Shown: one piece after another, positions 1 through 29,701 of the stretch | How the letters are laid out: every line of letters starts with the position of its first letter | Position numbering within the stretch: the stretch's first letter is position 1 | Notes under the pieces: generated by a model | Seen by the model: only the letters and a program-made list of their open reading frames with translations | What the model was told of the DNA's origin: nothing | Databases searched by the model: none | NCBI RefSeq assembly: GCF_001550095.1 | Contig: NZ_LRUC01000049.1 | Coordinates: 1-64,000 of the forward strand | Origin: Celeribacter ethanolicus | GTDB lineage: Bacteria > Pseudomonadota > Alphaproteobacteria > Rhodobacterales > Rhodobacteraceae | DNA length: 64,000 nucleotides | Direction of reading: 5' to 3' | Translations under genes and position numbers: made by a program

Positions 1-686
1 CGTGTGGTGCGCTGTTCAATACGCTTTTCATGCGTGCCCTGAACCAGACGATGCACATAAACCCCCGGCAGGTGGATGCAATCCGGATCGAGCGAGCCGG
101 TCGGGACGATCTCCTCGACCTCCATGATGCAGATCTTGCCGCACATCGCCGCCGGCGGGTTGAAATTGCGCGCGGTCTTGCGGAACACGGCATTGCCGGT
201 CTCGTCGGCTTTCCACGCCTTCACGATGGAAATATCGGCGAAAATGCCCTCTTCGAGGATATAGGTCTCGCCGCCAAAGTCCTTGTGCTCTTTGCCTTCG
301 GCGATCACCGTGCCCACACCCGTCTTGGTGTAAAACCCCGGGATGCCCGCCCCGCCGGCGCGCATGCGTTCGGCCAAAGTGCCCTGCGGATTGAACTCCA
401 ATTCCAGCTCGCCCGAGAGGTATTGGCGCATGAATTCAGCGTTTTCGCCCACGTAAGACGACATCATTTTCCGGATCTGGCGGGTCTCCAGCAGCTTGCC
501 GAGCCCGAACCCGTCGACGCCCGCATTGTTCGAAGCCACGGTCAGATCCTTGACGCCGCTCTCGACGATGGCGTCGATCAAAAGCTCGGGAATGCCACAC
601 AGCCCGAACCCGCCCGCAGCGATCAGCATGCCGTCCGTCAAAAGCCCGTCAAGGGCGTCGGGGGCACTTGCATATGTCTTGTTCAC
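1..686 (-). CDS. scoA: 3-oxoacid CoA-transferase subunit A (partial, 3' end outside window)
   Basis: This is subunit A of a succinyl-CoA:3-ketoacid (acetoacetate) CoA-transferase, which moves CoA from succinyl-CoA to a 3-oxoacid. About 228 residues are visible and the C-terminus runs off the left edge. The N-terminal glycine-rich loop (AAGGFGLCGIPE) and the stretch SNNAGVDGFGLGKLL are typical of the family, as is RAGGAGIPGFYT. I chose the GTG at 686 because GGGAGAGAAG lies just upstream and the protein then begins like its homologues; no in-frame ATG fits. It follows rpoN by 19 bases, so it is probably the third gene of a cobW-rpoN-scoA operon. Subunit B would be expected just beyond the edge. 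Next to a ketone carboxylase, its likely job is activating the 3-oxoacid product. That last step is inference. Confidence 0.88.
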   Translation of the reverse strand, partial: MNKTYASAPDALDGLLTDGMLIAAGGFGLCGIPELLIDAIVESGVKDLTVASNNAGVDGFGLGKLLETRQIRKMMSSYVGENAEFMRQYLSGELELEFNPQGTLAERMRAGGAGIPGFYTKTGVGTVIAEGKEHKDFGGETYILEEGIFADISIVKAWKADETGNAVFRKTARNFNPPAAMCGKICIMEVEEIVPTGSLDPDCIHLPGVYVHRLVQGTHEKRIEQRTT

Positions 687-705
687 TCTTCTCTCCCTTT
701 TGAAG

Positions 706-2013
706 TCAGTCTTTGTGCCGCCTTTGGGCCGCACCGGGGAACCCGGCCATGCGGCGCCGGTTCGACACCGTGCGGCGCGACACGCGCAGGCCCGCCTCCG
801 CCAGACGGGTGGCGAGTTCCTGATCGGTCAGCGGCTTGTCCGGGCGTTCCGCCGCGATCAACCCGGCGATGCGGGCCGAGATCGCTTCGGCGGGAACATG
901 CGAGCCGTCCCGGTGCCCTGCCCCGCCGCGGGCGAAAAAGGCGCGCAGAGGCATCATGCCCCGCGGCGTCTGGATCAAGAGCCCGTTGCGCACCCGGTTG
1001 ATCGTCGTTTCATGCACCCCGAGGTTTGCGGCCACATCCGCACAGTTCAGGGGTTTGAGATACGCGGGCCCCTGTTCGAGGGCCTCGTACTGGACGCCGA
1101 GCACATGGGCTGCGACATCCAGCACGAGGCTGTTGCGACGCGACACCGTCCGCTCCAGCCAGCGGGCCTCTTTCAGCGCCGCGCGATGTTCGGCTCCCGC
1201 AACCGGGGTCACTGCGATGCGCGGCGCGCTGGCGGCGTTCAGTTCGACATGCCATTGTCCCAACTCATCGCGTTCGGCGATCAGATCCGGCGCCCGGCGC
1301 AGCTCCGGCGCGTCGTCGAAATGCGCCCCCGGTTTGGGATCGAGCCGCCGCAACCGTGTCACCAGCGCAGCCAATTCTTCGGCATCAACCTCGCAGCGGG
1401 CGAGCAGCGCGGCGGTGTCGCCCTTGGCCAGAAGCGGCAGGGCGTCAAGCAGGCGCGCCATCGGCGGCGTCAGATCGCCCGCCTCTTCGAGTTGCAAGCG
1501 CAGGCAGTCCGAGAGAGAGCGGGCAAACAGGCCCGCGGGTTCGACCTCATGCAGACGGGTGAGCACCGCCTCGGCCTCTGCTGCCGGACACCCGGCCTGT
1601 CGCGCAATGTCTTCGAGCGGCGCACCGAGCCAGCCGCTGGGTTCCAGATGCTCCAGAAAGACCATCGCGATCTCCCGCGCCCGCGTCTCGCGAAAGATCA
1701 GGCCGATTTGCCGGGCTACATGCGCATGTAAGCCGTCGGCATGCGCCCGCAGCGTCTCGATCTCATCGCCGCTGCCGAGAAACGCCGGGCGCCACGGGCC
1801 GGGCACGCTCCGGCGCTCCGCCCCGGCAGGCTCGGGGGCGGCGCTGTCCGCATCGCCCTGTGGCAGGGTGAGCGTCAGACAGGGGTTCTCCGCCGCCTCT
1901 TCGATCAGCAGCCCGGCCAGTTCGGCATGATCCATCTGCAACAGCCCGATGGCGCGCTGCATCACCTGTGTCAGGCGCTGAGACGTGCTCTGGTGCAGAT
2001 GAAGCCCGGTCAT
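706..2013 (-). CDS. rpoN: RNA polymerase sigma-54 factor RpoN, diverged paralogue
   Basis: This is a sigma-54 factor of 435 aa, short for the family (about 430-500). The glutamine-rich activator-interacting region I is at residues 1-45 (QSTSQRLTQVMQRAIGLLQM, EEAAENP). A core-binding region follows. The DNA-binding HTH (ADVAANLGVHETTINRVRNG, then QTPRGMMPLRAFF) lies around residues 330-370. The RpoN box near residues 408-417 reads SRRTVSNRRR, whereas the canonical box is ARRTVAKYRE, so the recognition helix for the -24 element has changed. The gene lies between a CobW GTPase and a CoA-transferase subunit, 34 and 19 bases from its neighbours, in a locus that also has a sigma-54 activator. A dedicated paralogue for this cluster is the natural reading. 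A single all-purpose rpoN cannot be excluded from one window. Confidence 0.92.
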   Translation of the reverse strand: MTGLHLHQSTSQRLTQVMQRAIGLLQMDHAELAGLLIEEAAENPCLTLTLPQGDADSAAPEPAGAERRSVPGPWRPAFLGSGDEIETLRAHADGLHAHVARQIGLIFRETRAREIAMVFLEHLEPSGWLGAPLEDIARQAGCPAAEAEAVLTRLHEVEPAGLFARSLSDCLRLQLEEAGDLTPPMARLLDALPLLAKGDTAALLARCEVDAEELAALVTRLRRLDPKPGAHFDDAPELRRAPDLIAERDELGQWHVELNAASAPRIAVTPVAGAEHRAALKEARWLERTVSRRNSLVLDVAAHVLGVQYEALEQGPAYLKPLNCADVAANLGVHETTINRVRNGLLIQTPRGMMPLRAFFARGGAGHRDGSHVPAEAISARIAGLIAAERPDKPLTDQELATRLAEAGLRVSRRTVSNRRRMAGFPGAAQRRHKD

Positions 2014-2046
2014 TTTGCGGCTCCTTTGCGGTGGCCCGGCTGCGGC

Positions 2047-3348
2047 TCAGCCATGACGCCCGCCCTCGCGCAGGAAACGCGGCTGGATGAGGAAGGCCTC
2101 CGAGGTCAGGCCCTCCTGCGGGGTGAAGGGCGCGCGTTCCAACAGCCAGTTGCGGGTGGGCAGACCCGGCGTCGCAGCGGAGCGACGCAGCGCTTCGCGA
2201 TCTCCGGGCAGATGGGCCAGACGATCGCGAATGGTGGCTTCGTCCTGTTCGCTGAGGTTTTCACCGATGATCACCAAACGCCCGATGCCATCGGCCAGCG
2301 GACCGCTGGAGGGCCAGGCGCCGAGCTTGACCGGCGCAAAGGCGACATCCTCAACACATTGCAGCGCCATCGGCACATCGAGCCCCGGCAGCGCCACGAG
2401 ACCTTTCACCCGGAGCAGCTTTCCGGCGTATTTCGACAGGATTTCGCCCAGAACCACCGAAAGACCGCGCCATCTCGGTGCCGTGTCGAAGCGGACGACA
2501 AAACTGCGCACCTGACCGGAGTGCAACCCTGTCGGGGCATGCCCCTGCCCATGGCTCAGCCCGAAGCCCTGTGACGGCAGAGGCGCGTGCCCCCCGCCCG
2601 CCAGCGGGGCAGTCTTGTCGGGCGTCAACGCCGGTCCCAGCCAGTCATCGAGGCTCAGCGGCGCATCTTCCGCGGCATAGAGACCGCTGGAAAACAAATC
2701 CGCCGGGGCACAGGCCCCGTGGTCGAGGACCACATGCGGTGCCGTCGGGTTCAACGCGTTCAGCGTCCGGATCATGGCATCCTGTTCGACCCGTCCGGCC
2801 AAATCGCATTTCGACAGCAACAGACGGTCGGCCATGGCAATCTGCGCCGTGGCTTCGCGGTGCCGGACAATCTGATCGCGGATGCGGGTGGCATCGACCA
2901 CGGTCAGCACCCCGTCGCAGCGAAAACGGGCCGAGACCTGACGGTCCTCCATCAACGCCCGGACCACCGGGCTGGGATCGGCCAGTCCCGTGGTCTCGAT
3001 CACCACACGCTGCACGGGAGCGATCTCGCGCCGGGCCATTTGCCCGTGCAGGCGCATCAGAGCCGCGATCAGATCGCCCTGCACGGTACAGCACAGACAG
3101 CCGCTGTCGAGAATCACCAAGGCATCATCGATTCGCTCCACGAGGTGGTGATCTATGCCGATATCGCCCAATTCGTTGATGAACACCGCCACATCGGCCA
3201 TATCCGACCGGGTCACCAGCCGGTTCAGCATCGTGGTTTTTCCCGCGCCCAGAAACCCGGTCAGGATCGTGACCGGGATGCGCCCGCCCGCCCCCTGCGC
3301 GAGGGCGCGTGCGAGGGGATGTGTGACCGTTTCCGTCTTCGTTTTCAT
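2047..3348 (-). CDS. CobW/G3E-family metallochaperone GTPase
   Basis: This G3E-family GTPase has a Walker A motif (GFLGAGKTT) near residue 32. It has the CxCC metal-binding motif (SGCLCCTVQGDL) near residues 80-90, the switch region ETTGLADPSPV and the guanine-specificity motif SKCD. The C-terminal CobW_C domain is preceded by a histidine-rich linker (GHAPL, LSHGQGHAP, LHSG). Such proteins deliver Zn, Co or Mn to target enzymes. The start at 3348 is the second of two adjacent ATGs, and it has the better spacing (5 bases) to AGGGAGG. It heads a cobW-rpoN-scoA operon opposite a ketone-carboxylase cluster, so metal insertion into that carboxylase, whose small subunit has a zinc ribbon, is a reasonable inference. 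The metal itself cannot be read from the sequence. Confidence 0.88.
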   Translation of the reverse strand: MKTKTETVTHPLARALAQGAGGRIPVTILTGFLGAGKTTMLNRLVTRSDMADVAVFINELGDIGIDHHLVERIDDALVILDSGCLCCTVQGDLIAALMRLHGQMARREIAPVQRVVIETTGLADPSPVVRALMEDRQVSARFRCDGVLTVVDATRIRDQIVRHREATAQIAMADRLLLSKCDLAGRVEQDAMIRTLNALNPTAPHVVLDHGACAPADLFSSGLYAAEDAPLSLDDWLGPALTPDKTAPLAGGGHAPLPSQGFGLSHGQGHAPTGLHSGQVRSFVVRFDTAPRWRGLSVVLGEILSKYAGKLLRVKGLVALPGLDVPMALQCVEDVAFAPVKLGAWPSSGPLADGIGRLVIIGENLSEQDEATIRDRLAHLPGDREALRRSAATPGLPTRNWLLERAPFTPQEGLTSEAFLIQPRFLREGGRHG

Positions 3349-3351
3349 CAT

Positions 3352-3800
3352 GTCCTCCCTGTTCCTGCCCAAGGAGAAGCAGGTTTCTTACCGTGCCTTC
3401 CCTTGCCTCCTCACTCAAGGCGTTAGCGCAAGGCGGCGTGGCAGATCTTCCGCGTGCCCGACCGCCGGGCGTTCGAAATCCGGACACCCGGCGGTCGGGC
3501 ACGCGTCGCCCCGGCAGAGCGGGACAAGCCGCCACGCGGCCCCTCCGACCGGCGCTTTCCGCAACGGGATCTGCCCTTGCAGATCACACCGCAATCGCCC
3601 CGGCCGCCATGCCGTCACAGTTTCGAAACCGCCAGGTTTTTGGGCAAACTGTTTGGCCTGCCGGAAAATGATGCTAGGCTTCCGGCCTGATCATGTCGTG
3701 CCCACCAAACGGGCAGCGATCGCGGCCACGGTTCCGGGGAGGGAACCGCCGTGACGGTGCGGAGCAGAAACCGCCGACAGAATATGGGAGGAGATACCGA
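3352..3800. other. Divergent intergenic region between cobW and the sigma-54 activator
   Basis: This stretch of about 450 bases carries no convincing gene. It contains a 19-bp perfect inverted repeat (listed separately) and a 7-bp hairpin at 3729-3748 (CGGTTCC/GGAACCG). It should hold the promoters of both the cobW operon (minus) and the activator gene (plus). I found no sigma-54 element with correct GG-to-GC spacing that I would defend. Confidence 0.6.
3451..3505. repeat. 19-bp perfect inverted repeat with 17-base loop
   Basis: The left arm at 3451-3469 is CGCGTGCCCGACCGCCGGG. The right arm at 3487-3505 is its exact reverse complement. The loop (3470-3486) contains TTCGAA. It lies about 100 bases upstream of the cobW start and 300 bases upstream of the activator start. 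No T-run follows on either strand, so it is not a standard terminator. It may be an RNA hairpin in the cobW leader, a protein-binding site or the relic of an element. Confidence 0.9.
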
Positions 3801-5789
<1,989 letters not shown>

Positions 5790-5833
5790 CTGCGCCCCTC
5801 CCTGTCCCGCCCCAGCGGTCTCCAAAAACGCAA

Positions 5834-5863
5834 AACGGCCCCCCGGATTTCCGGGGGGCCGTT
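5834..5863. terminator. Bidirectional terminator between activator gene and carboxylase operon
   Basis: A 13-bp perfect stem (AACGGCCCCCCGG, four-base loop, complement) lies between the two converging stop codons. On the minus strand it is followed by TTTTGCGTTTTT, so it should end the five-gene carboxylase transcript efficiently. Confidence 0.85.
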
Positions 5864-5896
5864 GCCGTCAGGACGTGCCGTTACGATTCAGGGCGA

Positions 5897-6727
5897 TCAG
5901 ACCGACACCCCCTGCAGCCGTGCAACCGCGTCGAGCACGGCCTCCGGCGGATGGTCCACGGGCACCTGCGCATAGAGGAATTGCACAGATGTCGTCTTGG
6001 GCAGGTCCATCCCGCCGAACAGGGCCGCACTCACATCGCGGCCTTGCACCTTGTCGTCCGTTCCGATCACCGCATCGAACGGCGCGTCCTGACCGGCGGC
6101 AACGCCACGTCCGACCACGGCCCAACGGTAATGTCTGGCCGCATTGAACAATGGCGTATAAGCGGACACCTCTCCGGGTGCCTCGCCCTCTTCGAGCAAC
6201 AGCCCGCCCACCGGGCGTTGCGCAACGCAGCGCATGAAATCGGCGATATACATGGCCGCGTCTTCGGTCGTATCCGCATCCACCTCGGGCGCACGGCCCA
6301 CAAGTTCCTGCGCCTCGGCCAGCCAGGCCCCCGGCGCGGGCATGGCGAGCACCAGAGGGGTCTGGCCCTGAAGATGCGCGCCGACCGCCTCGACCACCTC
6401 GTCGAGCAGCGCGCGCGGCCCCGCCTCTTCGAGCATCCGGCGCAGCGGATAGGTCGCGCGTGTCTTCGATGCCATCTCGGCGACGAGGCCCGGGTGACGT
6501 GCCATCCACGACCGGAACAGATCGCCAACATTCACCACCGCCACATCCGAGCGCAACAATCCCCGAGCCTGAGTGAAGAAGGACAGGTATTTCGCCGCCC
6601 CTTCCGCCCAGGGATCGCCCTCCCGACCCAGCAGAAGTCGCCGGGCATAGCCCGACGACTCCAGCCAGACCCGCAGCGCCTTCGTGCCCGTTGCATCGGG
6701 CAGATCATCTGCGAGATATTGGCTCAT
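5897..6727 (-). CDS. 276-aa protein, candidate fifth (epsilon-type, Apc5-like) subunit of ATP-dependent ketone carboxylase
   Basis: I cannot assign a fold from motifs alone. The protein has 276 aa with no signal peptide or membrane segment, is acidic and alanine-rich, and includes PAPGAWLAEAQELVGR and a conserved-looking GGMDLPKTTSVQFLYAQVPV near the C-terminus. Its start overlaps the HyuB-type gene stop by four bases (ATGA), so translation is coupled. Last place in a HyuA-gamma-HyuA-HyuB-X operon and a mass near 30 kDa match the separately dissociating Apc5 subunit of acetophenone carboxylase. Assignment rests on position, size and coupling. Three-subunit acetone carboxylases lack such a gene. 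Confidence 0.7.
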   Translation of the reverse strand: MSQYLADDLPDATGTKALRVWLESSGYARRLLLGREGDPWAEGAAKYLSFFTQARGLLRSDVAVVNVGDLFRSWMARHPGLVAEMASKTRATYPLRRMLEEAGPRALLDEVVEAVGAHLQGQTPLVLAMPAPGAWLAEAQELVGRAPEVDADTTEDAAMYIADFMRCVAQRPVGGLLLEEGEAPGEVSAYTPLFNAARHYRWAVVGRGVAAGQDAPFDAVIGTDDKVQGRDVSAALFGGMDLPKTTSVQFLYAQVPVDHPPEAVLDAVARLQGVSV

Positions 6728-8994
6728 TGCAGTTCACCTCCGTCGATCCCCGCATTGGCCAGACGGGCTTCGAGCTCGGCGATACGCACGTCTTTCGGAT
6801 GCGGCATGTAATTGGGCTTCGGCGTATCGGCCCTGCGCGTCACATCCGGCGCGCCCATGTAGAGCGTGTCGATATCGTCCCCCCAGCAGCCGAAGTATTT
6901 CAGATGCGAAGGCGGTTTGGGTTGGGTCCAGTCTTTGACGAATTCGGCATAGGGCATCGAGCGGGCGATCCGCGCCTGACGTTCCTCTTCCCGGGCGGCC
7001 TCGGTGGCCTCGAAGTCGATCGCCAGCGTCGCCGGATCGAACACCACCTTGTAGAGCCGCGCCGCGACTTCCGCCGAGATCAGCCCCTCTTCGATGTCCT
7101 TCACGACACCGACCGGATCGCGTTCCAGCAGGTCGCCATAACCGGCGCCCGCGCCCTGGCTGATCATGAACAGCTCACCGCGCTTCGAGATTTCAAAGCC
7201 CATGCCCATATGGTGCGTGGTGTAGCTCGCCTCTTCGAAAGGCCGCTCATTCATGATTTCCTCGATCGAGTGACGGAATTTCTCCGGCTCGCTCTGAAGG
7301 ATCTCGTAGACATCGACATCCTTGACCTTGGACAGCGGATAGGTGCCACAGGCATAGCCGCCGAACAGGCCCTGGATCGGAGGGATCTTCGCCCCCTGAG
7401 CCGTGGTCATGAAGCCCCATTGCTCCGAGTCCTTGGTCGCCACCATCATGGTGTAGCCCTGACCGCCCCGGTACTTGCCCGGCGCGATGGCGTCCCGCGT
7501 CATCTTCTTGGACACCAGTTGCAGGAAGGGCACGTCTTCCTCGTTCACCTCCTGCTCGCCGATGTCGGCCATGGTGGCGAAGATCGGTGCCAGCGCATGT
7601 TCGCCGTCACGGTTCGAGGTCGCCCCCGCGCCCATGCCGTTCAGGTCGGCGCAGAGGTTGCCGAGCGTCTCGCCATGCTGGCTGACCCCGCCCCAGATGA
7701 AGGTGTTGATCATGTTGAAGGTGGGCGCATGCACCTTGGTGTATTTCTCCGGGCAGGAGTAAAGGAACTTCGCCACCGCATGCTGACCCGCGGTGAAGCC
7801 GGTGAAGATCGACATCAGCGATTGCGAGTTCGGCGCATCGTAGGAACAGTTCAGGATCGAATGCGGATCGGTGATCACCTCGATCGGTGCCATCGCCGCC
7901 TGACCGCGCGGCAGGTCGGGCCAGATGTAGCACAGGAAGAGCTGCGACAGCATCCCTTTGAGCCCGCCGAGAATAGTGTTGGTGGCACGGTTGGTGAATT
8001 CCGGGCTCGATCCCCGGAAATCGAAGATCAGCCGGTCGCCCTTCTTGGTCAGCTTGCAGTTCACCTTGACCACACAGTTCTCGCGCAGGGTCGAGTCCTG
8101 GATGATATAGGTCTGCACCGACATGTCCGGCCATTCCGTCAGACGACGTTTCACTTCGGTGCGCACATCCTCCATCGTCAGCCGCAGCATGGCGACCAGC
8201 GCCTCCGGGCCTTCGGTGTTCAGCGTTTCCTCGATACGCTGCTTGATGCGCAGACAGGCGAAGAGTTTGACCTTCATGTCCTCGAGTTGCAGCTTCGGCT
8301 CACGCACCGAGTTTTGCAGGAAGGTCAGCAGGTCGCGCTTGATCTGGTAGTTTTCGACCACCTTGAAGGGCGACATCTTCAGCCCCTCGTCAGACGGGCT
8401 TTCCGCCATCGACGGCATGCCGCCCGGCTCGATGGCGCCGTTTTCGCCCTCATGCACGGTCGAGGCGACCCAACACACCAGACGCCCTTCGTGGAAGATC
8501 GGCAGGATCATCGACTGGTCGGTGTTGTGCACATTGCCATAACGCGAGTCGTTGTGGATGAAACCGTCGCCGTCGCGCACGCCGACGGTCGGTTCGTTCA
8601 TCCAGTTCTTGACGATGAACTTGATCGGATGGTGCACCACAGACGAGAACAGCAGCACGCCGCCCGCAGAGGCCAGCGCCAGATCCCCGCTGGCGGTATA
8701 GATGCCGGTGATCACATCGCCCCATTTCGCGCCCGGGGCGGCGCCCATCTGTTCGACCATCTCATAGCCTTCGTCGCACCCCGATTGCAGCCGGTCGCGG
8801 ATACGGGCGATCATGTGATGATCGAAATTCTGACCGATGGCGAGCTCCTCGTCGGGGCTGCGCTCCATCAGGTCGTGGTTCTGCATGATCTCGGGATCGG
8901 GCCCGAGAAACAGCGTGGTGTCTTCGAGAAACTGCTTGATCAGTTTCATGTCCTCGGCCGAGGGGGCCGGGCCGGTGGTGTTCAGGTCTTTCAT
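6724..8994 (-). CDS. HyuB-type subunit of acetone/acetophenone-carboxylase-like enzyme
   Basis: This is a hydantoinase B/N-methylhydantoinase B family protein of 756 aa, about 85 kDa, the size of the large catalytic subunit of ketone carboxylases. Typical segments are EMVEQMGAAPGAKWGDV, GDGFIHNDSRYGNVHNTDQ, HEGENGAIEPGGMPSMAES and GGQGYTMM. In this family the subunit holds the carboxylation site and works with HyuA-type subunits that phosphorylate the ketone enolate and bicarbonate. The start at 8994 has AGGAGG eight bases upstream; the open frame continues 33 codons further without support. It is coupled to the next gene by a four-base overlap. Whether the substrate is an aryl or an alkyl ketone cannot be decided here. 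Confidence 0.85.
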   Translation of the reverse strand: MKDLNTTGPAPSAEDMKLIKQFLEDTTLFLGPDPEIMQNHDLMERSPDEELAIGQNFDHHMIARIRDRLQSGCDEGYEMVEQMGAAPGAKWGDVITGIYTASGDLALASAGGVLLFSSVVHHPIKFIVKNWMNEPTVGVRDGDGFIHNDSRYGNVHNTDQSMILPIFHEGRLVCWVASTVHEGENGAIEPGGMPSMAESPSDEGLKMSPFKVVENYQIKRDLLTFLQNSVREPKLQLEDMKVKLFACLRIKQRIEETLNTEGPEALVAMLRLTMEDVRTEVKRRLTEWPDMSVQTYIIQDSTLRENCVVKVNCKLTKKGDRLIFDFRGSSPEFTNRATNTILGGLKGMLSQLFLCYIWPDLPRGQAAMAPIEVITDPHSILNCSYDAPNSQSLMSIFTGFTAGQHAVAKFLYSCPEKYTKVHAPTFNMINTFIWGGVSQHGETLGNLCADLNGMGAGATSNRDGEHALAPIFATMADIGEQEVNEEDVPFLQLVSKKMTRDAIAPGKYRGGQGYTMMVATKDSEQWGFMTTAQGAKIPPIQGLFGGYACGTYPLSKVKDVDVYEILQSEPEKFRHSIEEIMNERPFEEASYTTHHMGMGFEISKRGELFMISQGAGAGYGDLLERDPVGVVKDIEEGLISAEVAARLYKVVFDPATLAIDFEATEAAREEERQARIARSMPYAEFVKDWTQPKPPSHLKYFGCWGDDIDTLYMGAPDVTRRADTPKPNYMPHPKDVRIAELEARLANAGIDGGELQ

Positions 8995-9053
8995 GGTTTT
9001 CTCCTCCTGTCGGATCATGGGCCCCGGCGCTCCACTCGCCGGGGCTGCCGTTT

Positions 9054-11210
9054 TCAGTGCCTGATGGCCGGGGTTTCGTTCCGCAGGAACCAAGAGGCCC
9101 CTTGTTTCGCGGTCACGAAGGTCCAGCCCGGGTTCACGAGATAGGTCGTAACCTCGGAGGCGACGATTGCCGGTCCTTCGATCTCGACCCCCGGAACCAG
9201 GTCCTTGCGCGCCCAGACCGGAGTGTCGATGGCCCCGTCCTGCCCCACGAAATGGCAGCTACGGGTGCTGGACGGGGACGGCGGCGTCTGGCGCGCGGCC
9301 TTGTCGACCGGCTTGATGTCCTCGAACTTGACCGTCTCGTGCCTGACATAGCTCGACACCCGGATGGTGTTGATCCGGATCCCGGCCTCGGGAGCCTGGC
9401 TGCCTTCGCCGAAGCGCTTGCCGTAATCGTTGGAGAACTGGGTGATCACCTGAAGCACATCGGCCGGGCTGTGAAGCTCATGGAACGGGATGACGGCGGT
9501 GGTCTGCACCAACTGGTTGCCATAGCGCATGTCCAGTTCCAGATCGAACAGGATCTGGTCATCGGGCACGCCCTGACGCCGCAGGTCCTGACGGCCGCGT
9601 TCCTTCAGCTCCGCCACGATGCCGTTGAAACGGTCGTAATCGCTGAACAGTTCGCGGGTATTGCTGTCATAGAGCACCATGTAGAGCGATTGCTCATGGA
9701 TATGAAGCTGATGCATGTTGCCCGCGCCGACCGCCGAGAACACCGAGCTGAGGGGCGGCGCCAGGATCTTGTCGATGGACAGGTTCTGGGCGATGCCACA
9801 GCAATGCAGCGGGCCGTTGCCTCCATAGGCCAGCATGGTGAAATCCTTGGGATCATAACCGCGGGCCCGCAGTTCGGTGAACAGCCCGTTGGCCATGCTG
9901 TCATCGACCTTTTCGCGGATCAGCTTGGCCGCTTCGATCACATCGCAATCAAGCTCATCGCAGATCGTGTCCTCGATGACCGCCCTGGCCCGGCGCGGGT
10001 TGAGCGGAATGGAACCGCCGGCATAGTTCTCGGCATCCAGATAACCCAGCAGAAGATCGGCATCGGTGACGGTGGCCTTCATGCCGCCACGGTCGTAACA
10101 GGCAGGTCCCGGGTCGGAGCCCGCGCTTTCGGGACCGCATTTCACGGTCTTGTACATCCGGTCATAGGACGCGACCGAGCCCCCGCCCGCGCCAAGCGTT
10201 ACCAGATGCACCATCGGCACCGACACCAGCCAGCGGTCGATGACCGGGTTGAAATCGTAGTGCTTGATGCCGCCCTCGACGACGATACCGATGTCATAGG
10301 AGGTGCCGCCCATGTCGGTCGCCACCACATTGCCAAGCTCGGCCTGCAGCGACAGGTGCTCCGAGGCGCCGATGCCGGAAACCGGGCCCGAGTGGATGGT
10401 CTGCAACGCGTCGGTCGAGTTGAGCTGCGCCATGCCACCGGAATTGTGGATCACCAGCATCGGCTTTTCATAGGTATGGGCGCGCAGGTTCTGTTCGAGC
10501 TGAGACAGCGCGTGATACATGGTCGAGTGCAGGTAGCCATCGACAATGGCCGAGGTGGAGCGGACATATTCGCCCTTCCGCCCGGCCACCTGATGCGACA
10601 GGATCACCGGGATCGCGCCCAGAAGATGCGAGGGGTATTCCTCAAGCAGGATCTCTTCGATGCGCTGTTCATGCACCGGGTTGACCACCGCATTCACCAG
10701 CGCGACGACGATGATCTGGGCACCACGGTCGACCAGCTCGCGCAATTGCCGACGCAGATCCGGCTCATCCAGCGCCATCACCTCCTTGCCCTGGAAATCC
10801 AGCCGCTCCCGCACGCCGCGGATCATATGGGCTTCGACCAGCGGATCGGGGCGCTGCGCATTCGGCAGATCCTGCTGTCCCAGATTGTCGAGCCCTTCGC
10901 CATAGCCCCGCGCACGGCTGAGCGGCACGGTGGCCTCATAGCCTGCGGTGACCAGCATGCCGATCTTCGGCCCCTTGTGTTCGATCAGCGCATTGGTGCC
11001 GAGCGTGGTGGCGTAGCGGACGCTGTCCACCTCGGTCAGGACCTGTTCGAGATCGACGTCCAGCTCACTACAGGCCTTGCCCAGCGCTTCGTTGAACCCC
11101 ATGGCGAGGTTGTGGTGCGTCGTGAGCGCCTTGGTCTCGATATACTGATCGCCCCAGACGACGAAACAGTCGGTGAAAGTCCCACCGATATCAACGGATA
11201 CACGTTTCAT
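9054..11210 (-). CDS. HyuA-type subunit (larger) of ketone carboxylase
   Basis: This is a hydantoinase A/oxoprolinase family ATPase of 718 aa. The N-terminal actin-like phosphate loop VSVDIGGTFTDCFVV is intact. The second motif VVATDMGGTSYDIGIV lies near residue 300, followed by a glycine-rich GAGGGSVAS and the family motif GPESAGSDPGPACYDRGG. LAYGGNGPLHCCGIA is near residue 460. This family phosphorylates a carbonyl oxygen with ATP. It has about the size of Apc3 and of the AcxA-type subunit. It starts at 11210 after GGGAGAGAG and ends 59 bases before the HyuB-type gene. Confidence 0.87.
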   Translation of the reverse strand: MKRVSVDIGGTFTDCFVVWGDQYIETKALTTHHNLAMGFNEALGKACSELDVDLEQVLTEVDSVRYATTLGTNALIEHKGPKIGMLVTAGYEATVPLSRARGYGEGLDNLGQQDLPNAQRPDPLVEAHMIRGVRERLDFQGKEVMALDEPDLRRQLRELVDRGAQIIVVALVNAVVNPVHEQRIEEILLEEYPSHLLGAIPVILSHQVAGRKGEYVRSTSAIVDGYLHSTMYHALSQLEQNLRAHTYEKPMLVIHNSGGMAQLNSTDALQTIHSGPVSGIGASEHLSLQAELGNVVATDMGGTSYDIGIVVEGGIKHYDFNPVIDRWLVSVPMVHLVTLGAGGGSVASYDRMYKTVKCGPESAGSDPGPACYDRGGMKATVTDADLLLGYLDAENYAGGSIPLNPRRARAVIEDTICDELDCDVIEAAKLIREKVDDSMANGLFTELRARGYDPKDFTMLAYGGNGPLHCCGIAQNLSIDKILAPPLSSVFSAVGAGNMHQLHIHEQSLYMVLYDSNTRELFSDYDRFNGIVAELKERGRQDLRRQGVPDDQILFDLELDMRYGNQLVQTTAVIPFHELHSPADVLQVITQFSNDYGKRFGEGSQAPEAGIRINTIRVSSYVRHETVKFEDIKPVDKAARQTPPSPSSTRSCHFVGQDGAIDTPVWARKDLVPGVEIEGPAIVASEVTTYLVNPGWTFVTAKQGASWFLRNETPAIRH

Positions 11211-11330
11211 TCTCTCTCCCTATCGTGCCCGGGATGCCGTCCTCCTCGACGGGCCGTCCCGGCACTGTTCTCTTGAAGATGTCGGATCGTCCGCCCGGGG
11301 CCGTGCCACGGGCCGACAGGATGATCTGGC

Positions 11331-11729
11331 TTAGTGGCTGTGCGCCCGGCCCGGGGCCACCACGGGCCCGGCGTCCGGCAGCATCTCCGGACCGCGCGCG
11401 GCCCATTGGGCTTTCAGCGCGGGCACATCGACCTGCATGTCCCACAGCGGCGGGTGACCCGGGATCGCGTATTCCGTCTCGACCTGCGTGCCGCATTTCG
11501 GACAGCAGAATTCGAGGATGCGCACCCAGTCCGGGTCCGGCGCGAAAGTGTAGCGATACATCTTCGGGTCGATCACCGGCGGGTGGATCTCCTGCGGGTT
11601 GCGATTGTGAACCAGCAGGCCTTCCTTGTAGTTGCCCTCCGCCGGCGCGATCACATGATCGCAGACACGGCACTCCCATTTTTCCGTTTCAAGGTCGATC
11701 CGCAGATACTCAGTCATAGGAATTTTCAT
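11331..11729 (-). CDS. Small (gamma-type) zinc-ribbon subunit of ketone carboxylase
   Basis: This is a protein of 132 aa in the acetone carboxylase gamma-subunit family. Two cysteine pairs, CRVC (residues 20-23) and CPKC (about residues 61-64), form a probable zinc ribbon. LVHNRNPQEIHP and VRILEFCCPKCGTQVE are family-like, and the C-terminus is histidine/proline rich. It is nearer the 15-kDa Apc small subunit than the 20-kDa AcxC. The start at 11729 lies five bases after the preceding stop and has GGAGG about ten bases upstream. About 120 bases separate it from the next gene, the only sizeable gap in the operon besides the 59-base one. Confidence 0.85.
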   Translation of the reverse strand: MKIPMTEYLRIDLETEKWECRVCDHVIAPAEGNYKEGLLVHNRNPQEIHPPVIDPKMYRYTFAPDPDWVRILEFCCPKCGTQVETEYAIPGHPPLWDMQVDVPALKAQWAARGPEMLPDAGPVVAPGRAHSH

Positions 11730-11734
11730 CGGCC

Positions 11735-13669
11735 TTACTCCTCCCGATCCAGAATGACATCACCGGCTTCGGAGACGGTGAAGGTCCAACCCGCAGGAAT
11801 GCGGGCAGTGAAATAATCCTCTTCGAGGATCGCGGGCCCGGCGGCGAAATCGCCCGGCTGCATCGTGTTCAGGCGATAGACCGGCAAGTCGATCCGGCCC
11901 TGTTCCGGCACCAACACATTGCGCGTGCCATCGGCCTTGGCCGCGGCCTTGCGCGACACGGCGACCTGTTTGGCCTCGCCCTTGCGCAGCGATTTGACGG
12001 CGGAGAGTTCCAGTTCGACCGCATCCGCCCCGGCCATCTCCGCCGGGAAGCTTTCCGATCCGTTCAGTTCATGAACCGTCTCCCTGTCGCCGGACTGGGC
12101 CACCAGCCGCGCCGAGACCGCGTAGCTGCCTTCTTCGAAGCCTTCGGCGAACATGTCGCGGGCGGCTTTCTGCCTGAGACTGTCGAGCGTCGATTTGAGG
12201 GCTTCGCTGGTGTGTTCGGCCAGATCGACCGCATAGTTCTGCGAGACGTTGCACGAGCCGATGCCATAGGCCGAGAAGACCGCCGCCATCGCCGGAATGG
12301 CGACCCGCCTGATCCCGGCCTTGTCGGCCACGCCACAGGCATTGAGCGGACCGGCACCGCCAAAGGCCATCAGTACGGTATCTGCGGAAATCGTCGTGAA
12401 CCGGTGCAATTCCGCCGCAATCTTGGTCTCGAACGCATCCGACATCGCCTGAACGGTCTGGTCGAGATCGAGCCCCAGAGGTGTGCCGACATTGGCCATC
12501 ACGGCGGCTTCCGCCCGCGCTGCATCGAGCCCCATGCCGCCGCCGAAATACGACCCCGGATCGAGCAGCCCCGAGAGCAGGCTGGCATCGGTGATCGTCG
12601 CCTCCTTGCCGCCACGGCCGAAACAGGCCGGTCCCGGCAGGGCGCCGACGCTTTCCGGACCGATCGCAATCGCACCGTCCTTCGCCTTGAACACAGAACT
12701 GCCCCCGGCCCCGGCACTGGAAATCTCGCACAGCGGGAAGGACACAGAGATGCCTTCGACATGGCCGCGCCGGATCTCGGCCACTTTGCCATCGGTGCAT
12801 TGACCAATGTCGGTGGTGGTGCCGCCGACATCAATTGAGACCGCATCGCGGAACCCGTACATGTTGGCAAAGCCACGCATCCCCTCCATGCCGCCGCGCG
12901 GACCAGAGGAATAGGTCTTGATCGCCACGGTCTTGGCCACCCGCGAGGCATCGCCATCGTTGCGGAAGATCAGCAGCGGATTCTTGGTGCGATAATCGCG
13001 CAGCCGGTTTTCCGCCTGAAACAGGAATGCCTCCATCGAGGTGTGCAGGAAGGCGTTGATCAGCGCCGACCAGGCCCGGCGCTCGGGCGCGCGGTCCACG
13101 GTCAGATCGGAGGCATAGAGCACCGGCACCGCACCCAGAAGGTGGCGCGGATATTTGCGCAGCACGACCTTCTTGACCTTGTCCTCATTGGCATGGAACC
13201 CGGTGCCGCCGAACGACACGACCAGACGATTGGCGCCTTTGGCGGTAAGTTCGTTGATTGTCTTGACGATTTCGACCTCGGCCTCCGGTGCATCGAGAAT
13301 GGCGGCGTCGATATAGGCCACCCGGTCCCCGACCAGAGCGTCATAAACATCCGGGTCATGGGCGCGCAGCGCCTCGGCCAGGTCCGTCGCCGCCTGGTCG
13401 AGAATGAGACCCAGTTTCGGCCCTTTGCGCTCGCAAATTGCATTGGTGCCCTGTGTCGTCGAATAGCGGATCAACTCCACCTCTTCGAGCAGACGTTTGA
13501 CATCTTCGGCCCCGTAAAGGGTCTCCGATGCCTTTTGCAGACCTTCGAAAAAACATTTCGACAGATCGTAGGGCGTGGTCAGAACCTTGGTCTTCTTCAC
13601 GCCCTCGTCGGACATGATGCAAACATCGGTCAGCGTCCCGCCGTTATCGATATTGATCTGAAATGCCAT
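11735..13669 (-). CDS. HyuA-type subunit (shorter) of ketone carboxylase, first gene of operon
   Basis: This is a second hydantoinase A family ATPase, 644 aa. The N-terminal motif is INIDNGGTLTDVCIM, in which asparagine replaces the usual first-motif glycine position (IDIGGTFTD in its paralogue). The second motif VSIDVGGTTTDIGQC is canonical, followed by GAGGSSVFK and GPESVGALPGPACFGRGG. MAFGGAGPLNACGVA matches the family. Two different HyuA subunits in one operon match Apc1 and Apc3, which phosphorylate ketone and bicarbonate respectively or in turn in the acetophenone carboxylase scheme. The start at 13669 has GGAG about nine bases upstream. The open frame runs another 62 codons upstream, but that part overlaps the candidate promoter and lacks a ribosome site. 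Confidence 0.86.
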   Translation of the reverse strand: MAFQINIDNGGTLTDVCIMSDEGVKKTKVLTTPYDLSKCFFEGLQKASETLYGAEDVKRLLEEVELIRYSTTQGTNAICERKGPKLGLILDQAATDLAEALRAHDPDVYDALVGDRVAYIDAAILDAPEAEVEIVKTINELTAKGANRLVVSFGGTGFHANEDKVKKVVLRKYPRHLLGAVPVLYASDLTVDRAPERRAWSALINAFLHTSMEAFLFQAENRLRDYRTKNPLLIFRNDGDASRVAKTVAIKTYSSGPRGGMEGMRGFANMYGFRDAVSIDVGGTTTDIGQCTDGKVAEIRRGHVEGISVSFPLCEISSAGAGGSSVFKAKDGAIAIGPESVGALPGPACFGRGGKEATITDASLLSGLLDPGSYFGGGMGLDAARAEAAVMANVGTPLGLDLDQTVQAMSDAFETKIAAELHRFTTISADTVLMAFGGAGPLNACGVADKAGIRRVAIPAMAAVFSAYGIGSCNVSQNYAVDLAEHTSEALKSTLDSLRQKAARDMFAEGFEEGSYAVSARLVAQSGDRETVHELNGSESFPAEMAGADAVELELSAVKSLRKGEAKQVAVSRKAAAKADGTRNVLVPEQGRIDLPVYRLNTMQPGDFAAGPAILEEDYFTARIPAGWTFTVSEAGDVILDREE

Positions 13670-13780
13670 CGTGCATTTCTCCTCCCGTTTTTGATGCCTG
13701 GGGCAAACCGGCCCCTGCGGGCGCAGAACCTGCACCCGGCGTATCGAGACGGATCGACGCTCTCCTCTGTGTCGATCCGT

Positions 13781-13796
13781 TGAAACACGCCTGCCA
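13781..13796 (-). promoter_or_regulatory. Candidate sigma-54 (-24/-12) promoter of the carboxylase operon
   Basis: Read on the minus strand the site is TGGCAGGCGTGTTTCA, against the consensus TGGCACG-N4-TTGCA. The -24 GG is present and the spacing to the -12 C is correct, but the -12 G is replaced by T. It lies about 112 bases upstream of the first operon gene and points towards it. The match is good but imperfect; the diverged RpoN box in this locus could go with an unusual promoter. Confidence 0.45.
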
Positions 13797-14244
13797 TTCG
13801 GTGAAGCAGAAACACTTCCGAACCCGGGAGACAGGTCGGAGAAACGGATCTTCACTCTGAAATATAAGGTTTTTTTATTTCACACAGTCGGACGGACACG
13901 CCTCAATGAGGAGACCCCCGTCCATAATTCGAACGTTCGCGTCCGCAGTAGGCATTCTGTCCGGATGAGTGTCCTGCGGGTCTAAGGCCGCTGCCGGGCG
14001 TAGCCACAGCCGCTCCCCCCAAAAATAATGTCGAGGAAACGGCCCTTGCTGGCCATCGAGATCCGCACGCCGGATCGGCAGCAAGTCATCCTCTCCGTGA
14101 TCCCGAAGCGTTTCCGCATGATCATGGATTCGGTGAAAGCGACCTCTGCAAATGTTCTGGACACGGTCATGCTGCCACTCCTCGCGAATCCGCATAGATG
14201 GGAGTGATCAAGGCGCCGGTAGAGATGGCCAAATACGTTTCACA

Positions 14245-14273
14245 ATTTGTAGCACAATTTTGTGCACACAAAT
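14245..14273. promoter_or_regulatory. AT-rich dyad, possible activator-binding site
   Basis: ATTTGT-AG-CACAA and its near-inverted copy TTGTG-CAC-ACAAAT form an imperfect dyad, with spacers of 2 and 3 bases. It stands about 450 bases upstream of the candidate sigma-54 promoter, in enhancer range, but equally close to the tRNA-Ser 3' end. The link to the AcoR-like activator is inference only. Confidence 0.3.
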
Positions 14274-14312
14274 CGCTCAAGTAGTTGATTTTACATGATC
14301 TGAAAAAGAGGG

Positions 14313-14402
14313 TGGCGGACAGGAAGGGATTCGAACCCTCGAGACGGTTCCCCGCCTACACACTTTCCAGGCGTGCGCCTTCGACCACTCGGCCACCTGT
14401 CC
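14313..14402 (-). tRNA. tRNA-Ser (anticodon GGA)
   Basis: This is a class II tRNA of 90 bases including an encoded CCA. The acceptor arms are GGACAGG and CCTGTCC with discriminator G. The anticodon loop reads CTGGAAA, giving GGA (serine, UCC/UCU codons). A long variable arm and the T-arm GGTTCGAATCC are present. It lies just downstream of the alaX gene on the same strand. Confidence 0.95.
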
Positions 14403-28366: not shown

Positions 28367-29701
28367 TTACAAATAATCCGAGCGCTGCAAGCCGTATTTG
28401 GCCATCTTCTCGTTGAGCGTCCGGCGCGGCAGGCACAGTTCGTCCATCACCGCCACGATCGAGCCTTTGTGACGGCGCATCGTGTTGTCGATCAGCATCC
28501 GCTCGAAGGCCTCGACATATTCCTTCAGGGGCTTGCCCTCGGTGGTCATGGTCTGCTGTTCCGGCGCGTCGCTTTCAGACAGGAGAAGCGAGGTGATCGA
28601 GCCAGAGCCGCGACGGCTTTGCAGCACGGAACGTTCGGCGACGTTGATCAACTGGCGGATATTGCCCGGCCAGGGTGCTTGCAACAATTGCGCCGCCTCC
28701 TGCGCCGACACTTCCGGCGCGTCGCAGCCGTATTCCTCGGCGAATTGCTGACTGAGCTGGGTGAAGAGCAAAAGAATATCCTCGCCCCGCTGTCTGAGCG
28801 GCGGCGTGGTGATCTTCATCGCCGCGAGGCGGTAATAGAGGTCCGGCCGCATGGCGCTTTCACAGGTCCGGCCCTGTTCTTGCAGATTGCAGATCGCGAT
28901 CACCCGCGTCTCCGGCGGCGTGCCCTGTTCGTCGATCCATTTGAGCAACCGCGCCTGAAGCACCATCGGCATGGCCTCGATGTCCTCAAGCACAAGCGTG
29001 CCGCCGCGCGCCTCCTCGATCAGCGGCTGAATCTGCCCGTCCGGGTCCGGCCCGAACAGCCGTTTCGTCAGGTCCGCCTCATCGCGCCCCGCGCAGGCGA
29101 AGGTGATGAATTTCTTCGAGGCCCGCGTGCCCACGGCATGCAGCGCGTGCGCAACCAAGGTCTTGCCGGTGCCGGTCTCGCCGTCGATCAACACATGCCC
29201 GTCGGCTTGGCCCAGATCGAGAATATCCTCGCGGAGCCGCTCCATCACCGGGGACGCCCCGATCAGCTTGTTCATGATGCCGGTGCCGTCCGACAGCTCG
29301 CGGCGCAGCATCCGGTTGTCGAGCGTCAGGCGGCGCGCATTGGTGGCTTTCTTCGCCAGTTCGGTCATCCGGTCCGGGTTGAACGGTTTTTCAAGGAAAT
29401 CGAACGCACCGATCCGCATCGCCTCCACCGCCATCGGCACATCGCCGTGGCCGGTGATCATGATCACCGGAAGACCGCTGTCGACACTCATCAGCTTCTT
29501 GAGAAACTGCATCCCGTCCATCCCCGGCATCTTGATGTCGGTGATCACCACGCCCGGGTAATCCGCGCCCAGCGATTTGACCGCGTCCTCGGCACTCGCA
29601 AAGGTTTCGGTGTCGAACCCCGAGAGCGCCAGCCATTGGCTGATCGACTGCCGCATGTCCTGTTCGTCATCGACAATCGCGATTTTCATTGCCGTCGCCA
29701 T
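28367..29701 (-). CDS. dctD: DctD-like response regulator without GAFTGA loop
   Basis: This is the response regulator of a C4-dicarboxylate two-component system, 444 aa from the chosen start. The receiver domain has DDEQD and the phospho-acceptor in VITDIKMPGMDG (near residue 56). The AAA+ domain has Walker A GETGTGKT and the arginine-bearing RPDLYYRLA. Where sigma-54 activators carry GAFTGA this protein reads RLFGPDPDGQIQPLIEEARG, so the loop is gone, and Walker B is LVLEDIEAM with Asp-Glu changed to Glu-Asp. A C-terminal Fis-type HTH is present (RRHKGSIVAVMDELCLPRRTLNEKM). The start at 29701 has AAGGGAAG upstream. Without GAFTGA it should not drive sigma-54 promoters and may act with a sigma-70 type factor, as R. 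capsulatus NtrC does. Confidence 0.87.
   Translation of the reverse strand: MATAMKIAIVDDEQDMRQSISQWLALSGFDTETFASAEDAVKSLGADYPGVVITDIKMPGMDGMQFLKKLMSVDSGLPVIMITGHGDVPMAVEAMRIGAFDFLEKPFNPDRMTELAKKATNARRLTLDNRMLRRELSDGTGIMNKLIGASPVMERLREDILDLGQADGHVLIDGETGTGKTLVAHALHAVGTRASKKFITFACAGRDEADLTKRLFGPDPDGQIQPLIEEARGGTLVLEDIEAMPMVLQARLLKWIDEQGTPPETRVIAICNLQEQGRTCESAMRPDLYYRLAAMKITTPPLRQRGEDILLLFTQLSQQFAEEYGCDAPEVSAQEAAQLLQAPWPGNIRQLINVAERSVLQSRRGSGSITSLLLSESDAPEQQTMTTEGKPLKEYVEAFERMLIDNTMRRHKGSIVAVMDELCLPRRTLNEKMAKYGLQRSDYL

Follow-up and report, generated by a model that had tools for sequence, protein, structure and literature searches.

A putative ketone carboxylase island in Celeribacter ethanolicus appears to carry its own sigma-54, activator and promoters

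We analyzed a window of 64,000 nucleotides from Celeribacter ethanolicus, corresponding to bases 1 to 64000 of the 107,762-bp contig NZ_LRUC01000049.1 (C44; the genome consists of 52 contigs and 4.2 Mb). At positions 3 to 13934 of the window lies an island with five minus-strand genes resembling those of acetophenone carboxylase (Apc; apcABCDE, for subunits α′, γ, α, β and ε), a convergent gene for a sigma-54 activator, and a divergent cobW-rpoN-scoA group, whose families were confirmed by domain scans. This is the layout given in a preliminary description of the same DNA, and all genes lie where it placed them, with scoA truncated. As a rule, one sigma-54 is shared by many activators. We propose, with a probability of about 0.74, that the island is a self-contained catabolic module in which an Apc-type ketone carboxylase is combined with a dedicated sigma-54 that has drifted together with its promoters. 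The private regulatory kit postulated in the preliminary description was borne out by a sole rpoN, a sole GAFTGA activator among those found, and a private promoter type shared by the two operons.

The activator, cobW and rpoN accompany the five apc-like genes in 13/13 close loci (L028 to L040), rpoN lying inside the fetched stretch in nine and being found on the same contig in four. The three genes also stand with the five on a 917-kb plasmid of Neorhizobium petrolearium, where rpoN is followed by scoA and then scoB. Adjoining rpoN, scoA was seen in four of the 13 close stretches and on this plasmid, and in part in the longer stretches of two more; it was not seen in L029, and most other stretches end before its position. 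Because activator, cobW and rpoN co-occur with the five genes across loci, the grouping is not due to chance; three gene arrangements of the island were found. A scan of genome contigs with the γ subunit yielded 19 loci, 18 of which have all five subunits, the remaining one being cut by a contig end. Of 394 genomes sampled from the window's family, three, the own genome among them, have the fifth (276-aa) subunit. Island hosts in the Rhodobacteraceae are Celeribacter, Pseudodonghicola, Sinirhodobacter, Gemmobacter, Antarcticimicrobium and one metagenome-assembled genome (MAG), and further hosts are Allorhizobium, Ciceribacter and Ochrobactrum, which we take to be members of the Rhizobiales. 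The island had been called a Rhodobacteraceae version of such an enzyme; it does occur there, but also in these Rhizobiales hosts, and close relatives without rpoN are found in the family of Azoarcus. Wider relatives are located on plasmids of Rhodococcus, Cupriavidus and Halorientalis. Since it occurs in distant hosts and once on a plasmid, the island may be portable.

The island rpoN (706 to 2013, minus strand) is the only sigma-54 gene found in the own genome, and it is the sole one in 5 of the 14 island genomes. Across the family sample, 141/394 genomes gave a match to the sigma-54 DNA-binding domain (130 over cut-off), and 253 showed none. The activator-interacting, core-binding and DNA-binding domains of the island RpoN (PF00309, PF04963 and PF04552) all scored over cut-off, and its TIGR02395 score of 271.1 was just under the cut-off of 277.35. 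In a tree of 99 RpoNs, which includes the RpoN box and helix-turn-helix (HTH) columns and leaves out L069 (same as the window) and the partial L028, L029 and L038, the 15 island proteins form one clade (Shimodaira-Hasegawa-like approximate likelihood ratio test, SH-aLRT, 100). The 84 controls comprised 15 RpoNs native to the genomes of the island survey, the 30 best family matches and 39 hand-picked weaker family matches.

The HTH and the RpoN box are described as reading the −12 and −24 promoter elements (PMC6028918 and PMC7057263, in the parts available), and the canonical box is ARRTVAKYR (PMC6755734, likewise in part). The window RpoN has the box SRRTVSNRR, a clade-wide variant, and the HTH HETTINRVRNG. 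Box positions 7 and 8 are N[RWH] in 15/15 island RpoNs and in 0/84 others, where KY occurs in 71 and NY in 2. The last position of the HTH, typically HESTVSRVT, is Arg in 15/15 island RpoNs versus 0/84 others. Natural controls are offered by six close relatives without private rpoN, one from a Phyllobacteriaceae MAG (L041) and five from the family of Azoarcus (L246, L247, L248, L251 and L252), which belong to the same enzyme clade with α subunits 84 to 86% identical. The activator was seen in four of the six stretches, cobW in three and rpoN in none. Each of the six genomes has one rpoN, with the canonical box ARRT[VI]AKYR and HTH HEST[VI]SRVT.

The promoters differ correspondingly between the two groups. 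The predicted private −24/−12 promoter of the apc operon, CGGAAGTGTTTCTGCTTC (13803 to 13820, minus strand), is conserved in 15/15 private-rpoN loci as GG[AC]A-N6-[CT]TGC[AT]TC with canonical GG-to-GC spacing, reading GGAA in 13 loci and CTGC in 13. The predicted private promoter of cobW-rpoN-scoA, GGTAAGAAACCTGCTTC (3376 to 3392, minus strand), follows GG[ACT]A-N6-CTGC in 15/15 loci, 12 of them covered by an alignment in which activator-site-like repeats are also visible. In the six relatives without private rpoN, the promoter is the canonical TGGCA[CT]-N5-TTGC in 6/6. A simple shift from C to A at −24 was considered and dropped because the cobW promoters read GG[ACT]A. A predicted activator site, GTTCGAATTATGGAC (13920 to 13934, minus strand), lies 114 bp upstream of the apc promoter and matches GTCCG-N5-CGGAC at 8 of 10 positions, and a further predicted site, GTCCGGATTTCGAAC (3471 to 3485, minus strand), lies upstream of the cobW promoter. 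Matches of at least 8/10 were found 111 to 114 bp upstream of the apcA promoter in 13/15 loci, and the site is weak in the two loci of Celeribacter baekdonensis.

The private promoter was found only through the comparison of loci. A generic sigma-54 consensus scan of the window gave 25 matches against 29 expected by chance and was uninformative, because its matches were no commoner than chance. A candidate promoter at 13796 to 13781 with two mismatches was discarded, having no GC at the required spacing. Scanning the five sole-rpoN genomes for GGAANNNWWYYTGCWTC gave nine sites, six in islands and three elsewhere, and the backward control gave none; because this pattern was derived from these promoters, the apcA sites are bound to be among its matches, and being strict it misses looser or GGT/GGC sites, of which the window's own cobW promoter is one.

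The activator (3693 to 5789, plus strand; 698 aa) consists of an AcxR-like GAF sensor, an AAA domain with GAFTGA and a Fis-type HTH. We examined nine Sigma54_activat proteins in the own genome, representing 14 matches and leaving out three weak AAA matches (23 to 27 bits). GAFTGA is present in the island activator alone; in the eight others, one of them at 28811 to 29266 of the window, the motif is lost or changed. This points to a broad decay of sigma-54 activators in the lineage. According to the part of PMC10274813 available, NtrC of Rhodobacterales has lost GAFTGA, and use of sigma-70 is reported in R. capsulatus. In all five sole-rpoN genomes, no GAFTGA activator other than that of the island was found. 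For the other four of these genomes, this reading covers 30 of 52 matches. The rest are second pieces of proteins already read, weak AAA matches, or proteins whose only matching pieces flank the GAFTGA stretch (G395:C19, G404:C1 and G394:C9), and a GAFTGA activator is unlikely to have been missed among them.

These results bear on whether rpoN is instead the host's general sigma-54, placed here by chance, its divergence reflecting lineage drift and not dedication. Sigma-54s of the family are indeed often divergent, several with partly changed boxes, and near-GAFTGA loops are kept by three non-island activators (GAFVGA in G401, GAFPGA in G395 and GAYPGA in G394). However, none of the five genomes yielded a second true GAFTGA activator, and four Rhizobiales genomes (G398, G400, G405 and G406) carry the island rpoN side by side with a canonical one. 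Moreover, the island rpoN genes form a single clade regardless of host order and are linked to the operon, and cobW-rpoN shares its promoter kind and activator site with apc. We consider a general sigma-54 improbable.

The extent of dedication is less certain. With a slight preference, we suggest an orthogonal sigma-54 whose HTH, box, activator and promoters have diverged from the canonical type by co-evolution; the regulon in some Rhodobacteraceae would be the two island promoters, and in Rhizobiales both systems would work side by side without cross-talk. The two kinds of RpoN might also recognize both promoter types, the extra rpoN serving dosage or portability into hosts without one. Neither the GG and GC cores nor the spacing between them has changed, and since 253 of the 394 family genomes lack a sigma-54 DNA-binding domain match, portability alone would favor carrying rpoN. 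Against this, Rhizobiales hosts have kept the island rpoN alongside a canonical one of their own, and both reading motifs have clade-specific residues. We regard such an absence of insulation as rather unlikely, though as the likeliest of the rival readings.

To the enzyme, the preliminary description had assigned five subunits of Apc type, which agrees with what we found. The genes, all on the minus strand, are apcA-like (α′; 11735 to 13669; 644 aa, ASKHA/HyuA, proposed bicarbonate kinase), apcB-like (γ, zinc ribbon; 11331 to 11729; 132 aa, Acetone_carb_G PF08882), apcC-like (α; 9054 to 11210; 718 aa, proposed ketone kinase), apcD-like (β/HyuB; 6724 to 8994; 756 aa, PF02538) and apcE-like (ε; 5897 to 6727; 276 aa, with a predicted barrel fold of the uroporphyrinogen decarboxylase (URO-D) type), the last two overlapping by four bases. 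In PDB sequence searches, the best match of all four core subunits was acetophenone carboxylase 5l9w, with acetone carboxylase (Acx) and hydantoinases behind: E 3.7e-90 for α′ with 5l9w_b (the Apc α chain), 2.5e-31 for γ with 5l9w_C, 3.7e-157 for α with 5l9w_B and 1.9e-83 for β with 5l9w_A. The part of PMC5214803 available defines the Apc branch by the order apcABCD(E), i.e., α′, γ, α, β, ε, by R/KERiDsxG in α and not in α′, and by a short γ with four Cys. The island has this order. RERLDFQG stands at residue 134 of the 718-aa subunit and [RK]ERxDxxG is absent from the 644-aa subunit, while the 132-aa γ has four Cys aligned with those of Apc and fits the expected length, about 50 residues shorter than Acx γ. 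The island does not have the Acx composition of three subunits with no α′ and a γ of about 168 aa, nor is it a two-gene cluster of α and β alone as in hydantoinases and 5-oxoprolinases.

The 276-aa subunit is ApcE-like by predicted fold, not by sequence. Its AlphaFold model (predicted local distance difference test score 91.8) has ApcE, 9fou, as the best Foldseek match (E 2.8e-8). On a second structural look, URO-D chains scored as high as ApcE; we read the protein as probably ApcE-like, its position in the operon deciding between the two.

An ATP-dependent hydrolase of the hydantoinase, oxoprolinase or lactamase type that had acquired extra subunits would explain the HyuA/HyuB domains, and caprolactamase CapA/CapB and N-methylhydantoinase are secondary matches. 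Yet Apc outscores oxoprolinase and hydantoinase for every HyuA/HyuB subunit, and the island has the zinc-ribbon γ, α′ and a putative ε, all of which are absent from the hydrolase clusters in the available part of PMC5214803. We judge such a hydrolase very improbable. The case against hydrolases rests on the PDB scores, because the tree check envisaged in the preliminary description, although carried out, included just one hydantoinase-type row, whose branch is very long (5.16), and adds little.

This HyuA tree comprised 74 rows, leaving out the partial L258 and the near-duplicates L031, L037, L045 and L261_A, with the α′ row L249 renamed; it is a quick tree that warns of long-branch joins, so its deep order is uncertain. 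The window and the island loci form one clade with 13 rows each for α and α′ (SH-aLRT 99). The next branch holds the six relatives without rpoN, followed by a wider group from Denitromonas, Azoarcus, Cupriavidus, Rhodococcus, Microbacterium and a haloarchaeon, with Apc and Acx outside; α and α′ give the same branching picture. A third Apc-like gene set (L249, L259 and L260) has its own branch, its α subunits being 39 to 43% identical to that of the window, and also occurs in two island genomes, G397 and G404.

As for the substrate, the genes point most likely to a short aliphatic methyl ketone of the acetone or butanone class rather than to acetophenone. We lean to a short ketone because of the AcxR-like sensor, ScoAB and the acetoacetate-CoA ligase of relatives (CoA, coenzyme A). 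The sensor is 38% identical over 245 aa (E 2.7e-53) to that of the regulator beside the acetone carboxylase locus L253, which also has scoA adjoining; the regulator beside acxABC is named AcxR. In two wider relatives, an acetoacetate-CoA ligase over cut-off follows apcE and adjoins a short-chain dehydrogenase/reductase (SDR) gene, the SDR of L052 being named by eye. One Microbacterium relative has a zinc-alcohol-dehydrogenase-like gene beside apcE, which passes no cut-off. Upstream in L028, the nearest relative, are a thiolase that exceeds the BktB subfamily cut-off and an acyl-CoA synthetase. These neighbors fit a route from secondary alcohol to methyl ketone, 3-oxoacid and CoA ester.

A genuine acetophenone (aryl ketone) carboxylase, the remainder being as proposed above, would account for Apc being the best solved relative of all four core subunits, and for the five-gene order and the ApcE fold. 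But identity to the Aromatoleum-type Apc locus (L243), genuine by score since its own ApcD and ApcE exceed the cut-offs, is just 38% for α, 33% for α′ and 29% for β, with 51% for γ, and the equivalog cut-offs are missed. In addition, that locus has a PaaK-like ligase and no acetoacetate-CoA ligase match, whereas scoA adjoins here instead of a PaaK/Bal-like ligase, and the sensor resembles a regulator from the acetone carboxylase side. We consider an aryl ketone improbable; acetone and butanone or a longer aliphatic ketone share most of the weight evenly, neither reaching even odds, and some other substrate is slightly less probable than an aryl ketone.

In two acetone carboxylase loci from Pseudodonghicola and Sinirhodobacter (L254 and L255), the AAA domains of the AcxR-like regulators are poorly conserved (29 to 33% to the window activator), and the regulator beside Pseudodonghicola acx (L164) has no GAFTGA. 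Such regulators may be another way of coping with the loss of the housekeeping sigma-54.

Several observations weigh against the self-contained module as we propose it. On the enzyme side, β is nearer in length to Acx (776 aa, 5m45_A) than to Apc (684 aa, 5l9w_A), and the NCBIfam acetophenone carboxylase equivalog models scored 353, 130, 559 and 326 for ApcA to ApcD against cut-offs of 1250, 250, 1500 and 1500. Because the core subunits fall far under these cut-offs, the island enzyme is, judged by sequence, a separate clade of the Apc branch. The 276-aa subunit gave no sequence-family or PDB sequence match and no detectable similarity to known ApcE in PDB and NCBIfam searches, the NCBIfam ApcE model included. 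AcxC-type genes, judged by score, occur in G395, G396, G397, G407, G410 and G412, with a neighboring HyuB/HyuA match seen for G395, G396, G407, G410 and G412; the first three of the six are island genomes, and this coexistence in 3/14 argues against simple redundancy for acetone and against plain acetone as substrate. On the regulatory side, 9/14 island genomes own further rpoN genes, which limits the sole sigma-54 to the other five, and the near-GAFTGA activators might retain some contact with sigma-54. TTGC is kept at two of 15 apcA promoters, the base after the −24 GG, A at 13/15 apcA promoters, varies between A, T and C upstream of cobW, and single 8/10 activator-site matches occur elsewhere within the same 600 bases. 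Finally, because all differences trace to one clade, the covariation of RpoN and promoter appears to be essentially one evolutionary event in many descendants.

With these points considered, the proposed module would work as follows. The enzyme would be a biotin-independent, ATP-dependent Apc-type ketone carboxylase, in which α would phosphorylate the ketone to an enol phosphate and α′ would make carboxyphosphate, while β would act as scaffold, the zinc-ribbon subunit would be structural and the ε barrel would close or bridge the complex, following the subunit roles proposed for Apc in the part of PMC5214803 available. The 3-oxoacid product would be converted to its CoA ester by ScoAB and undergo thiolysis. 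The GAF activator would sense the ketone or a related compound, bind GTCCG-N5-CGGAC sites about 90 to 115 bp upstream of the promoters, and fire the island sigma-54 at two private promoters, those of apcABCDE and cobW-rpoN-scoA. Since its own sigma-54 would fire the latter, rpoN would be positively autoregulated. The island sigma-54, having drifted in both DNA-reading parts along with the promoters, would be dedicated to the island. A maturation role of CobW as metallochaperone, also part of the preliminary description, is suggested by homology and co-conservation and is kept here as tentative.

The cobW gene (2047 to 3351, minus strand; PF02492 and PF07683) encodes a G3E GTPase of 434 aa from an ATG behind the ribosome-binding-site-like AGGGAGGA, which we preferred to the listed TTG start (441 aa). 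The gene for 3-oxoacid CoA-transferase subunit A, scoA (3 to 734, minus strand; TIGR02429), is incomplete since the window starts at contig base 1, and scoB was not seen in place. Window bases 3 to 656 (654 bases) recur unchanged within the short contig C14, and contig C43 begins with the first ~650; because such near-identical scoA copies make a collapsed repeat, the contig breaks here. Contigs of two other island genomes likewise stop in or just past the start of scoA. The copies suggest that scoA has recently been duplicated or has undergone gene conversion with a chromosomal copy. On C14 (L269), scoA and a scoB-like start, named by eye, are separated by genes for 351 aa (GSCFA-like by eye) and 261 aa.

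Other neighbors differ among the loci. A tRNA-Ser(GGA) gene at 14313 to 14402 adjoins the window's island, its 3′ end facing the apc genes, and is a possible integration point. In Gemmobacter (L033, 4798 to 7704), a zinc-alcohol-dehydrogenase-like gene and a second DhaR-like regulator precede the island. In Antarcticimicrobium (L038, 5114 to 6827), a 3-keto-5-aminohexanoate cleavage enzyme-like protein and an SDR stand beside it, possibly another route for a 3-oxoacid.

Compared with known systems, the island is like ApcABCDE of Aromatoleum aromaticum (5l9w core, 9fou ApcE) in its five-gene order, α/α′ pair, four-Cys γ and predicted ApcE-type barrel. Unlike that system, it has ScoA and an AcxR-like activator with its own rpoN, where the Aromatoleum-type locus has a PaaK-like ligase; Apc of A. 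aromaticum is regulated by predicted two-component systems (PMC4729919, part available). With the AcxABC locus L253 it shares the regulator family, an adjacent CoA-transferase gene and probably a 3-oxoacid product, whereas Acx has three subunits, a longer γ, neither α′ nor ε, and a separate branch in the HyuA tree. Cereibacter (Rhodobacter) sphaeroides has the dedicated pairs RpoN1-NifA, RpoN2-FleQ and RpoN3-AprX, RpoN specificity there arising from promoter position −11 and activator contact (PMC11999139, part available). The island resembles it in having a specialized sigma-54 paralogue with one cognate activator and, as predicted, promoter discrimination. C. sphaeroides has four rpoN in one genome, whereas the island rpoN is coupled to a catabolic operon, is predicted from sequence to be autoregulated, and is the sole sigma-54 in five genomes.

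Five-subunit carboxylases and dedicated RpoN-activator pairs are already known. Our literature searches, in a limited collection, turned up no paper describing a ketone carboxylase with a linked rpoN. As far as this literature goes, what appears to be new is a sigma-54 tied to a catabolic operon and predicted to be autoregulated, with differences in its reading parts and promoters and with natural controls lacking it.

Taken together, the island looks like a natural circuit of one sigma, one activator and one pathway in two bacterial orders. The relatives without private sigma keep the canonical promoter, which makes the HTH and box residues that set promoter choice directly testable, and the same pairing lets the insulation of a paralogous sigma-54 be tested. 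The island may thereby offer a ready-made orthogonal transcription system. Its enzyme also seems to represent one more clade of CO2-fixing ketone carboxylases with five subunits; the literature searched gave no biochemistry for this clade.

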